Positions 20,270 through 24,542 of a stretch of DNA of 47,023 nucleotides are shown here, piece by piece. The stretch's first letter is position 1. The number at the start of each line of letters is the position of its first letter. Made by a program: the position numbers and the translations under genes. The stretch lies in NCBI GenBank assembly GCA_025358765.1, contig JANYIG010000108.1:1-47023 (forward strand), read 5' to 3'. The DNA is from Candidatus Kapaibacterium sp. (GTDB taxonomy: Bacteria; Bacteroidota; Ignavibacteria; Kapaibacteriales; UBA4661). The notes below the pieces were generated by a model, which was given only the letters and a program-made list of their open reading frames with translations, was not told the origin of the DNA and searched no databases.

Positions 20270-20308
20270 CAGAGGCTGACGGAAACCGTCAACAGAGCGC
20301 AGAGAATC
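20270..20308 (+). repeat. Dispersed 39-nt repeat, copy B
   Basis: Inverted copy of 12680-12718 with one mismatch. It lies between the convergent SDR and antitoxin genes and touches the 84-nt inverted-end element that begins at 20318. Confidence 0.85.
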
Positions 20309-20317
20309 TCAATACGA

Positions 20318-20401
20318 TTAGGACTTTCGCAAATCGCCATTGTCATGCCAACGAAGGTTGGGGCTGGAATGACGCTCAATACATATTTGCGAAAGTCCTA
20401 A
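20318..20401. repeat. 84-nt element with perfect 17-bp inverted ends
   Basis: TTAGGACTTTCGCAAAT (20318-20334) and its exact complement (20385-20401) bracket 50 bases that contain an inverted REP-like copy (20348-20373) of the repeat at 9880. The core also forms a CCAAC-GAAG-GTTGG hairpin. It may be a MITE-like or REP-derived element, or it may end transcription from both convergent genes. It has no coding capacity. Confidence 0.7.
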
Positions 20402-20425: not shown

Positions 20426-20632
20426 CTATTTATGTAGCGCTAATCCGAGCTGTTCACGTGCTTCTGCAAGCAATAGCGTTGGAGCATTCTGTTCTTGAGC
20501 CTTTGCTTCACACAAATCGTACAAATCTTCATAGTCTTCCGCTAATTCACGAAGTGCTTCAAATTCTTCATACGGCAAAACAACAAATTCATTCTTACCG
20601 TTTTTCTGTAAGATTTGGGGATGGAGTTCCAT
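20426..20632 (-). CDS. Phd/YefM-type antitoxin-like protein, no toxin found
   Basis: A 68-residue protein starting MELHPQILQKNGKNEFVVLPYEEFEAL, the usual opening of a YefM/Phd-like antitoxin subfamily, followed by an acidic helix (AEDYEDLYDLCEAKAQEQ). The normal partner, a RelE/ParE-type toxin gene, should follow within a few bases, but the downstream DNA holds only repeats. It lies 37 bases after the hsdS stop on the same strand, so it is probably co-transcribed with the restriction-modification genes. There is no clear ribosome site; an overlapping frame from 20673 crosses its start. Orphan antitoxin, or a regulator of the operon, are both possible. Confidence 0.75.
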   Translation of the reverse strand: MELHPQILQKNGKNEFVVLPYEEFEALRELAEDYEDLYDLCEAKAQEQNAPTLLLAEAREQLGLALHK

Positions 20633-20673
20633 TGTTTTTTCGATTGGGGTTTGATTTCAATAGTGTATTTCAT
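20542..20673 (-). other. Overlapping 43-codon reading frame with RelE-like beginning
   Basis: The ATG overlaps the hsdS stop (ATGA, 20670-20673). The frame encodes MKYTIEIKPQSKKQWNSIPK and 23 more residues, then a stop inside the antitoxin gene. The first 20 residues look like the start of RelE/ParE toxins, but the frame lacks everything after the first helix. It could be a coupled leader peptide, a toxin remnant, or chance. Listed because its position is striking; coding is not established. Confidence 0.2.
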
Positions 20674-22064
20674 GCGCTCTCTCCCACTATCATCCGCTCC
20701 ACTTCCGCCTTCGCTGTCTGAAGCAACTCCGCCGCCTCGCGCTCCAATGCCCGCGCCCGCTCGCGCCGCGCCTGCGCTTCCCGTGCGATGCGCTCTTGGA
20801 CGGAGAGCGGGGGAAGAGGGATGAGTAAATTTTCAATGTCTTTCGGTGAAAGATGCCCGTTTGTCGCGCCCGTGATATGCCGTTTAAGGTGAATCTGTGC
20901 CGCGAATGTACGCAAATACGAATAAAGATAATAAGGATACGCCTCCTCGCTTGTTTGAAACTTGACAATATCGCCTCCAAGCCAATACGTGTCCGCATAA
21001 TCCCAATATCCAATTTTTCCGATTGTTGCGCCTGTCACAACAACCAGAATATCATGCCACCGCAATTGCTGAGACGGAGAAAATACATTTTGCGCAGTCA
21101 GTACGTCGCCTGTCTCGATTGTGCCGTCCGACTGAATGGAGGTTATTTGAATAACGGGGTAATCGCCGCCTTTTTCTTCATTCTTTGGCAAATATCCTTT
21201 TTTCAAGCCACCTTCAATAATTGAGTGCAAATGTACGACTTTGAAGCGACCCGATTGCAGGGCGTTGTCAATCTCCATAAAATAATTCCGGTTGTATGGG
21301 GCATCAAACCTTCCACCCCGCACTCGCGAAAACGGCACACGGAACATCATTTCGCGCTGCTCTTTGGGAAGTGTGATGCCTAATTCCGAAAGCACGTAAC
21401 CGTCTATGCTCTCAAGCAGGGCGCGGGCTTCGGCTTCTTTGGCGCGTTTGGTGGCGTGGGCTTCCTGCATGATTTGGACAACGCGAGACTGAACGTCAAG
21501 CGGCGGCAAGAGAATAGCGATTTTAGTAATATCAGTTTCGCTGATATTTGGTTGTGCGCTCCCATTTGAATTTCGTCGCACGAATGTCCTAAAAATCTCC
21601 GTTGAGAGGAAATAGAACAAGTACATTCCATTACAGCGAGCGCTATTGCTTCTAATAATTCCATTCCTTTGATTCAGCAAGGCATACACAGAGTCATCAA
21701 ACAAGCCCACTTTACCAATAGTTGCGCCCGTCATAGCAATTACTATATCGTTATGATGAACCTGAAAATCGGCAAATTCTGTGTGAAATTCGTCTGGTAA
21801 AAAAGTGGGGTCACCAAAAGTAATAGTACCATCTTCAGTAATATGCTTGATTGAGAGAAGAAAGGTGCTTGACAAATCAACATAGTCTTGCGATTTAAAA
21901 GCGAAGCCAGCTTGGAAGTGCGTTATATCTCGTAGTTTGACTACCTCATATTTTCCATTTCGTAGATTTTTTTCTATTTGTCGAAATTCCGGTTCATAAA
22001 AGTACGGGTCTAATCTCCCTTCGATTTCGCCTCGACGCAGCATAAACACTTTATTTGCGTCCAC
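20670..22064 (-). CDS. hsdS: Type I-like restriction specificity subunit (HsdS)
   Basis: A 464-residue S subunit with two target-recognition domains. Each half has a variable domain beginning with a KLRD/HLHSIIEGG-type strand and closing with a conserved PLPPL-x-VQ(S/E)R segment and a helix (ILLPPLDVQSRVVQIMQEAHATKRAKEAEA at about 185-215; LIPLPPLSVQERIAREAQARRERARAL at about 415-445). The helices form the antiparallel coiled coil that spaces the two half-sites. The protein directs the methylase encoded just upstream (8-bp gap) to a split DNA sequence. The recognition sequence cannot be read by eye. The gene is intact, and no inverted partial hsdS copies were seen, so phase switching is not indicated. 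Confidence 0.93.
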   Translation of the reverse strand: MDANKVFMLRRGEIEGRLDPYFYEPEFRQIEKNLRNGKYEVVKLRDITHFQAGFAFKSQDYVDLSSTFLLSIKHITEDGTITFGDPTFLPDEFHTEFADFQVHHNDIVIAMTGATIGKVGLFDDSVYALLNQRNGIIRSNSARCNGMYLFYFLSTEIFRTFVRRNSNGSAQPNISETDITKIAILLPPLDVQSRVVQIMQEAHATKRAKEAEARALLESIDGYVLSELGITLPKEQREMMFRVPFSRVRGGRFDAPYNRNYFMEIDNALQSGRFKVVHLHSIIEGGLKKGYLPKNEEKGGDYPVIQITSIQSDGTIETGDVLTAQNVFSPSQQLRWHDILVVVTGATIGKIGYWDYADTYWLGGDIVKFQTSEEAYPYYLYSYLRTFAAQIHLKRHITGATNGHLSPKDIENLLIPLPPLSVQERIAREAQARRERARALEREAAELLQTAKAEVERMIVGESA

Positions 22065-22072
22065 GTCGAGGC

Positions 22073-24313
22073 TTAGGCGAAAAAATTATCTTCCTCGCGG
22101 GCGACGCTTTCAATAAAGCGGGCAAGTTCGGGTGTTATCGTGTCGAGGTCGTTTTGAGGAATAGTGCGCCCTGTGGCATCGTAGCCTATCTGTTCGGCAA
22201 GCGCCATGAAGATTGGGTAATCCTGAAGTTTTTCCGATGTGGCACGGATAAACTCTTCGCTCAGTGCCTCACGCACCGCATCAATGCGCTCGTTGTAGCC
22301 GGCGGATGTTTCCTCACGCCAACGTTTGTAATCGTCAGTTCGTTGGTATGCAGAAATGTTGTCTCTAACTTCCCTTTCAAGTGTACGTTGTTCATTTCTA
22401 TTGAGAGTTCCTTGTTCTCTAAGCGCTTCGATATGTCGTACCAAATCTTCTTGAAGTTTTTGAATGGTTTCATTGCCACGTCTCAATGTAACAGCTTTCT
22501 CATCAAGTAAACGCCGAATTTCTACACCGAACTCCGGCGCGTCAAACAAGGTTTCACGCTGGCGGGCTTTTTCTTCTCGAATGGCGGCGGTTGTTTCTGC
22601 CTTGTGTTTTCGCAAGAAAATGACGGATGATTTTACACCTGCATCATTGGCGGAAAACGCTGTTTGCGGCATAGACACAACAGCAAGAATACGGTAACGC
22701 TCTTCAATCCAATCGCGGACGTACTGCGAACTGGAATTGGTCAAAATCCCGTCAGGAATCACCATTGCCAGAATCCCGTTTGGCTTCAAAAACCGATGAC
22801 ATTGTTCAATGAAAAGTATCTCAGTGTCTTGGCTGTTACGGGGTTCAGGCGGCTTCACACCTTTCAACTTCGCATCAATCCAATCCATATCCTTCACACC
22901 CAAATCGTATTGCTCCAGATAGCGGTGTTCGTTGAATTTGACCGAAGAGCCAAAGGGCGGATTGGTGAGGATAAAATCAAAGCGGTTTTCGGCAAAACCT
23001 TGATGTTTGGTGAGTTCGCGGATGCGGCTTATCGGCTCAAGCCCGTCGGCAGTAACGACGTTAGTGTGTCCGTCGTCGTGGATAATCATGTTCATCTTGG
23101 CAGCACGGGCAATATCTTCAGAGATTTCAATGCCATAGAGATTTTTTTCGGCGAAGTCGTGCCAGTATTTGTAGTGCTTCACAGCATCTTTTTGATTGGC
23201 AACGCGATTTGGGAAGCGCGTACTTGCTTGTGCGCGAACTTTGTCGAGTGCATAGAGTAAGAATCCACCCGAACCGCACGACGTATCAAGCACAAAGGCA
23301 TCGTTCTTGATAGGCAGCACATCCACGATGAACTTTACGATATTGCGCGGCGTGAAGTATTGACCGAACTCCCCGCGAAAGAATGAACCCATAAACGTCT
23401 CAAAGGCTCTGCCTTTGCTGTCGAGGTCGGTGCTGGTAAGGTGAATCGGTGCGAGATAACCCACGACGGTACGCAGTTCTTGAGCGTTGAGGCGAATATC
23501 ATCTTTGAATACTTCAGCATCTTTCTCTTTGCCGTGTTGGTAAATGGTGCGAACACGCTTCAAGAGCGTTTCCGGCACTTCTCCGGCAAAGATTTGAAAG
23601 TCATACGGCTCACCATCTTCACGTTTATCGTTATTCTCATCCCACATTTTGCAGAAAATGAGTTTGTCGAGTTCATCAAACGCCGCCGAAGGATTGCGCT
23701 TGCCGCCCGCCCATAGCGCGTCGTGTGCTTGTTTGAAGCGGCGCGTCAGTTCTTGCTCGGAGACGGTTTCCAGTTCAAAGCCGCCTTGTCCGCCTTTAAC
23801 ATACTTGAATCGTGCTGTTTTTGTTTGTCCAAACTTTGGAATGTCCGCAATGAGGTTTTCTTGCCGTTCCATTGGCGGAAAATCCTTGCGGTTAAAGTAC
23901 AGCGTTTTTATGCCGGAAGTAATGATAAGATAGTGTCCGTCCAATGAGTTGATATTACCAAACCCTTGCTCAATCGCTTGTACAAACTCTGCTTCGGAGA
24001 CTTCTTCTTTTTTACACTCCACAACGATATACGGGGCTTTGAGAGCATCATCATTGTACACAACAATATCTGCTAAATCGCTTGGGGTGCGGCGCGGTAC
24101 TTTGACCTCAAAATCAATCCGTTCAGGTTTATAGCCGTAATTCAACACCAGTGAACAGTAAGTTTCCGCTCGTACCTGCTCTTCAGGGTCGGAGAAACGA
24201 TATTTTTTGTTACGGTGGGTGTAGGTGATGTTCTTTTTGTCGTTATCAAGAGCCATAATGCCGCGCTCAAGACCTTTTTGGAGAAGAGAATTGAGAGTAT
24301 TTGCAGGATCCAT
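22073..24313 (-). CDS. hsdM: N6-adenine DNA methylase with fused HsdR_N-like nuclease domain
   Basis: A 746-residue protein. Residues about 45-145 match the N-domain of HsdR-type proteins: EEQVRAETYCSLVLNYGY, then D82 in DLADIVVYND and E99-C-K101 in YIVVECKKE, a PD-(D/E)XK-type set. Residues about 270-600 are an HsdM-type methylase: FGQYFTPRNIVKFIV, SAM motif DTSCGSGGFLLYAL (343 on) and catalytic NPPFG (451-455). The tail (about 600-700) is helical. The partner hsdS follows after 8 bases. No HsdR translocase lies in the window, so cleavage, if any, must come from the fused domain, which recalls BcgI-like type IIB enzymes; or the unit may only methylate. HsdM proteins are usually about 500 residues, so the extra length is the fused domain. 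Confidence 0.9.
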   Translation of the reverse strand: MDPANTLNSLLQKGLERGIMALDNDKKNITYTHRNKKYRFSDPEEQVRAETYCSLVLNYGYKPERIDFEVKVPRRTPSDLADIVVYNDDALKAPYIVVECKKEEVSEAEFVQAIEQGFGNINSLDGHYLIITSGIKTLYFNRKDFPPMERQENLIADIPKFGQTKTARFKYVKGGQGGFELETVSEQELTRRFKQAHDALWAGGKRNPSAAFDELDKLIFCKMWDENNDKREDGEPYDFQIFAGEVPETLLKRVRTIYQHGKEKDAEVFKDDIRLNAQELRTVVGYLAPIHLTSTDLDSKGRAFETFMGSFFRGEFGQYFTPRNIVKFIVDVLPIKNDAFVLDTSCGSGGFLLYALDKVRAQASTRFPNRVANQKDAVKHYKYWHDFAEKNLYGIEISEDIARAAKMNMIIHDDGHTNVVTADGLEPISRIRELTKHQGFAENRFDFILTNPPFGSSVKFNEHRYLEQYDLGVKDMDWIDAKLKGVKPPEPRNSQDTEILFIEQCHRFLKPNGILAMVIPDGILTNSSSQYVRDWIEERYRILAVVSMPQTAFSANDAGVKSSVIFLRKHKAETTAAIREEKARQRETLFDAPEFGVEIRRLLDEKAVTLRRGNETIQKLQEDLVRHIEALREQGTLNRNEQRTLEREVRDNISAYQRTDDYKRWREETSAGYNERIDAVREALSEEFIRATSEKLQDYPIFMALAEQIGYDATGRTIPQNDLDTITPELARFIESVAREEDNFFA

Positions 24314-24465: not shown

Positions 24466-24542
24466 TGGTCGGACTGGCGGGATTTGAACCCACGGCCTCT
24501 ACTACCCCAAAGTAGTGCGCTACCGGGCTGCGCTACAGTCCG
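24466..24542 (-). tRNA. tRNA-Pro (anticodon TGG)
   Basis: A complete 77-nt cloverleaf with encoded CCA. The acceptor stem pairs CGGACTG with CAGTCCG, discriminator A; the D-arm holds TAGCGCAGCCCGGTAGCGCA; the anticodon loop reads CTTTGGGG, giving TGG; the T-arm contains GGTTCAAATCC. The 5' G of most tRNAs is replaced by C, as is usual for bacterial tRNA-Pro. A terminator follows immediately. Confidence 0.98.

Follow-up and report, generated by a model that had tools for sequence, protein, structure and literature searches.

The window, by which we mean the whole stretch of DNA analysed (47,023 nucleotides of contig JANYIG010000108.1, Candidatus Kapaibacterium sp.), encodes on its minus strand a pair of neighbouring genes: M, the RM subunit, in which a nuclease domain is fused to an N6-adenine methyltransferase, and S, a specificity subunit with two target-recognition domains (TRDs) (Table 1). 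The HSDR_N_2 match in the 746-aa M scores 59.6 bits against a cut-off of 25, and the E values of the PF13588 and PF02384 assignments place both far beyond chance. The methylase motifs DTSCGSGG and NPPFG lie at residues 343-350 and 451-455 of M, and 8 bp separate its stop from the S ORF, which carries two Methylase_S stretches. ORF and Pfam analysis therefore located the features that the original prediction had read from the letters: D82, E99-C-K101, an HsdR_N-like domain and both methylase motifs in M, and a two-TRD HsdS 8 bp after it. The acidic residue E69, Q116 and a third gene common in relatives had been overlooked. Both the joining of nuclease and N6-adenine methylase in one chain and the separate two-TRD S encoded beside it are features of type IIB (RM + S) enzymes. 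M and S adjoin each other in nearly all close-family loci where both are readable, with the third gene intervening in a few.

Table 1. Coordinates of the features discussed (window positions unless preceded by a locus handle).
Feature	Position	Strand	Remark
M ORF (RM subunit)	22073-24313	minus	746 aa, ATG start; fused nuclease and N6-adenine methyltransferase
HSDR_N_2 (PF13588) nuclease domain, residues 43-144	23882..24187	minus	Pfam E 3.8e-16
E69	24107..24109	minus	aligned to BsaXI E73
D82	24068..24070	minus	aligned to BsaXI D90; invariant in 26 close relatives
E99-C-K101	24011..24019	minus	aligned to BsaXI E105-x-K107; invariant in 26 close relatives
Q116, QxxxY-type motif of this nuclease class (here QxxxN)	23966..23968	minus	Q invariant in 26 close relatives
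N6_Mtase (PF02384) domain, residues 298-578	22580..23422	minus	Pfam E 9.6e-36
Five-helix insert, residues 572-695	22229..22600	minus	predicted model; at the place of the BsaXI 'knob'
S ORF (specificity subunit)	20670-22064	minus	464 aa, GTG start, two TRDs
First TRD of S	21453-21953	minus	Methylase_S match in genome search
Second TRD of S	20781-21245	minus	Methylase_S match in genome search
tRNA-Pro(GGG)	24466-24542		window
Third gene, examples in relatives	L044:11629-13182, L047:11665-13155, L060:10178-11725, L069:12474-13997, L096:8620-10197 and others
Accessory nucleases beside the pair in relatives	L046:11647-12735, L047:13166-15055, L054:13188-14231

Among PDB sequences, the top match of M was RM.BsaXI (E 2.3e-39, residues 173-716), ahead of every type I HsdM, the best of which came next at E 5.5e-14. 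With an AlphaFold2 model of M (27 sequences, pLDDT 86), Foldseek placed BsaXI first (1.6e-31), with the limitation that the structure alignment included one BsaXI relative (L026), which could tilt the model towards BsaXI; the A2 profile search was not counted as independent evidence because A2 includes a BsaXI relative. VIA-align superposed residues 2-738 of the model on BsaXI with Z 29-32, an alignment that spans M from the nuclease to the C-terminus, whereas for type I M subunits the alignment begins only at about residue 181. A hinge between the domains may explain why the overall rmsd to BsaXI is high. The L026 protein itself (L026:3216-6008) comes from a genome of the window's order (G023), is a full-length close relative of BsaXI with an adjoining S gene, and is likely a BsaXI-type enzyme.

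BsaXI (type IIB, RM + S; PDB 8w0p, 8w2p, 8w2q; PMC11997821) and the window protein share the succession of nuclease, helical connector and N6-adenine methylase, a knob-like helical insert, a separate neighbouring two-TRD S and four proven nuclease residues, at 21-27% identity in structural alignments. M is about 170 residues shorter and lacks the C-terminal paddle. The BsaXI knob consists of helices inserted between strands 7 and 8 of the methylase and is followed by the paddle, whose residues D816 and E823 are also needed for cleavage (PMC11997821). In our model, the helices at 572-695 lie likewise between strands 562-569 and 702-721, whereas a two-helix paddle with counterparts of D816 and E823 is missing, as only a single short helix follows the last strand before the chain stops at 746. 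Shorter, knob-only homologues are described in the BsaXI paper, and other RM + S type IIB enzymes also lack the paddle (PMC11997821). With five helices at the knob position and then the chain end, the window M resembles these knob-only homologues.

Alanine at E73, D90, E105 or K107 of BsaXI abolishes cleavage (PMC11997821), and all four residues pair with E69, D82, E99 and K101 of the window M, which carries the E, D and ExK residues of a PD-(D/E)xK nuclease as type IIB enzymes do. The predicted fold of the N-terminal region, a check proposed with the original prediction, contains a PD-(D/E)xK-like core: the strand-helix order of the model (helix 43-58, strands 66-71, 80-86 and 94-100, helix 107-124, strand 128-132) is that of this core. 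By sequence, the N-domain alone found no match in the PDB even at E 10, and its segment of the window-BsaXI match scores only 1.3 bits by itself, so that the alignment is bridged via L026, which aligns at the same four catalytic positions and is also matched by PF13588. The link between the N-domain and BsaXI thus rests on the full-length alignment, on PF13588 matching both the window protein and L026, and on the fold.

Across 26 close relatives, only nine positions in residues 1-174 are invariant (D82, I96, E99, C100, K101, Q116, T132, S133 and P159), and the presence of D82, E99, K101 and Q116 among them argues for selection holding the catalytic residues. The suggestion that the fused domain only helps assembly is accordingly disfavoured. 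A solitary methylase with the N-domain as a structural leftover aiding assembly would suit the change of QxxxY to QxxxN, the missing paddle and the type I M call by PADLOC, but we regard it as very unlikely, given that all four catalytic residues are kept and that the invariant N-domain residues are mainly catalytic. The asparagine in place of the QxxxY tyrosine also occurs in L020 and L069. E69 is not universal in the family: the members of one subclade (L019, L058, L060, L061, L064, L066, L070) have F or Y at this position, and the distant L072 has H. Given the F or Y in that subclade, cleavage may work differently in parts of the family.

A separate HsdR, said by the original prediction to be missing, is indeed absent from the window. 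In the source genome (4.86 Mb, 362 contigs), PF04313 matched one protein, a 922-aa HsdR on contig C258, which has a classical 477-aa HsdM 30 bp away; the genome-wide search thus detected no HsdR dedicated to this pair, as expected of a type IIB enzyme, and the HsdR that a type I system would encode together with its M and S is missing here. We rejected the C258 protein as a partner because it adjoins its own HsdM. That the pair is an ordinary type I M and S borrowing this HsdR, the one present in the genome, is hardly credible: besides the neighbouring HsdM, an S protein encoded on C148, a contig that has no methylase, counts against it, as does the existence of genomes that have the pair and no detectable HsdR. 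PF04313 went undetected in 8 of 20 other genomes carrying the pair, some of them drafts in which assembly gaps are possible. In six of these eight, PF13588 is confined to M; in the other two, the additional copies all lie in short ORFs (207 and 309 aa). These whole-genome family searches are stronger than our search for HsdR near the relatives, a weak test that used one HsdR query.

We consider it likely that the pair is a restriction-modification enzyme of two subunits, RM + S, that belongs with BsaXI to type IIB and has the knob-only form; it is apparently a new relative of this known enzyme. Sequence, predicted fold and the four aligned BsaXI catalytic residues support the original proposal of a type IIB-like nuclease-methylase with an HsdS and without HsdR, the genes, domains, motifs, family, fold similarity and catalytic-residue alignment having direct support. 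The 746-aa protein probably both marks host DNA and cuts unmarked invading DNA, and the second protein sets where. Two copies of RM would assemble on one S, (RM)2S, whose two TRDs would read a split (bipartite) DNA site. The methylase domains would place an N6-methyl group on one adenine per strand, the expected m6A protecting host DNA. At an unmethylated site, the N-terminal PD-(D/E)xK domains would cut via E69, D82, E99 and K101, at a fixed distance on each side of the site, with neither ATP-driven translocation nor HsdR.

Counting against the type IIB reading are the absence of the paddle that BsaXI requires, the asparagine in the QxxxY motif, F or Y at the E69 position in one subclade and the type I call by PADLOC. 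The missing paddle also favours the alternative that the same nuclease domain cuts in a manner other than two-sided, for example on one side only, or as a nick without a partner complex; a mycobacteriophage Panchino protein with the same domain order and its S part in the same chain also speaks for it. We judge such a cutter unlikely: other RM + S type IIB enzymes do without a paddle as well, and with a separate two-TRD S and an expected two copies of RM, a nuclease should sit on either side.

Relatives of the pair carry downstream a recurrent partner gene of about 500 aa, found in 18 of the 26 relatives that could be assessed; two of these copies are fragmented, and one, L096, came from a search that used the third gene as query. 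An overlap of 4 bp with the S stop is usual, and in L060, L067 and L070 the gene separates M from S. The DGQHR domain TIGR03187 occurs in 14 of 15 third-gene members, with a weak DndB match, and a C-terminal model of moderate quality (pLDDT 75) matches SPARTA TIR and DNPH1 with Z 12-13, the TIR/DNPH1-type assignment standing at Z 12.8. For this gene, Foldseek returned no fold match with E under 0.001, and the profile found none among PDB sequences. Across 395 genomes of the phylum, full-length copies were found in two, both directly after M-S; none was found in the window's own genome. In the M tree, the window branches inside a clade where the third gene is common (95/96 support for a 14-row group), which makes loss the simplest reading, and the window probably lacks the gene for that reason.

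The frequency of this gene suggests that restriction is linked to an effector of the abortive-infection type. The literature searched, a partial coverage, yielded no account of a restriction pair accompanied by a DGQHR-TIR gene, and the gene is apparently an undescribed restriction-linked effector candidate; the three-gene form is a more novel lead than the two-gene pair. We raise, as a tentative possibility, that RM-S forms the centre of a three-gene defence system not described so far, RM-S-X, which in the window is reduced to two genes. Here X, a DGQHR (DndB-like) domain joined to a putative TIR/DNPH1-like domain hydrolysing NAD or nucleotides, would act as a second, suicidal line if restriction fails. 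A further variant, in which RM and S read and modify the site on behalf of the lost DGQHR and TIR-like effector and the window keeps mainly modification, seems distinctly improbable. It would account for the third gene following S, or separating it from M, in most assessable relatives, for both full-length copies among the 395 genomes following M-S, and for the window's place in a third-gene-rich clade with none found in its genome; against it, the nuclease residues are intact in the window and in third-gene-free relatives, and several relatives keep M-S without the third gene.

At the place that the third gene occupies in relatives, directly after S, the window has an orphan Phd/YefM-like antitoxin (20426-20632, minus strand, E 8.5e-6), with no toxin identified beside it. 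In Leisingera thetidis, plasmid pBMJM1_1 carries a gene annotated as N-6 DNA methylase (L079:6028-8271) that is a deletion fusion of the front of M with the back of the third gene, what is left of a three-gene operon.

Between tRNA-Pro and the start of the pair lie 152 bp. The neighbouring PepSY-like gene and this tRNA are kept in five of the seven sister-genus loci examined, where the RM-S pair is absent; different genes lie beyond them, indicating that the far side of tRNA-Pro is variable and possibly an insertion hotspot. Among these loci (L089-L095), an ORF beyond tRNA-Pro in L090 and L094 resembles, by eye, a phage-type integrase. The window also contains a 95-bp MITE-like element (20306-20400) with 15-bp terminal inverted repeats (AGGACTTTCGCAAAT), parts of which are repeated at about ten further genomic positions. 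In some relatives, accessory nucleases adjoin the pair; they vary by genome and include YhcG (PDDEXK), GmrSD type IV and Mrr-type proteins.

Type I HsdM and HsdS proteins (EcoKI, EcoR124I) are like the window pair in methylase core and S architecture, and type I methyltransferase was the best PADLOC model for M. Type I HsdM has no nuclease domain, whereas the window M has one, and type I cutting requires ATP-driven HsdR. MAD2 and MAD5 of MADS partially match M and S; we rejected membership of that system, as the scores reach 320 bits against a cut-off of 720 and 107 against 400, and no other MADS genes were seen at the locus. Fused arrangements also occur. The source genome (G000) encodes a second such enzyme near the end of contig C169 (L076:6144-9278), a 1044-aa single chain with a weak HSDR_N_2, an N6_Mtase and an S domain, and in Pseudanabaena (L058:7998-11594) M and S of the same family are fused in one 1198-aa chain.

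Mycobacteriophage Panchino gp28 is reported as a single-subunit restriction system (PMC7542560). It shares with the window M the order HSDR_N_2 then N6_Mtase; the E, D and ExK residues of the two proteins align, at 26% identity over 544 columns; its restriction, modification and specificity parts lie in one chain, whereas the window has a separate S. By analogy, gp28 indicates that a protein with this order of domains does not need a separate HsdR to restrict. BcgI, another type IIB enzyme, has the same two-gene RM + S plan without HsdR as the window pair (PMC3874165) and a reported PE-X12-ExK motif, a comparison made by description only; with BcgI lacking a solved structure, BsaXI is the reference open to comparison. 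Type IIB enzymes are scarce, with 28 identified in REBASE and 16 of known sequence (PMC11997821). The pair and its relatives would add to them a widespread branch, spanning Bacteroidota, Proteobacteria and Cyanobacteria, in which the BsaXI nuclease residues are kept. With its knob-like insert and no paddle, the window protein offers a natural test of whether two-sided cutting of the BsaXI kind needs the paddle.
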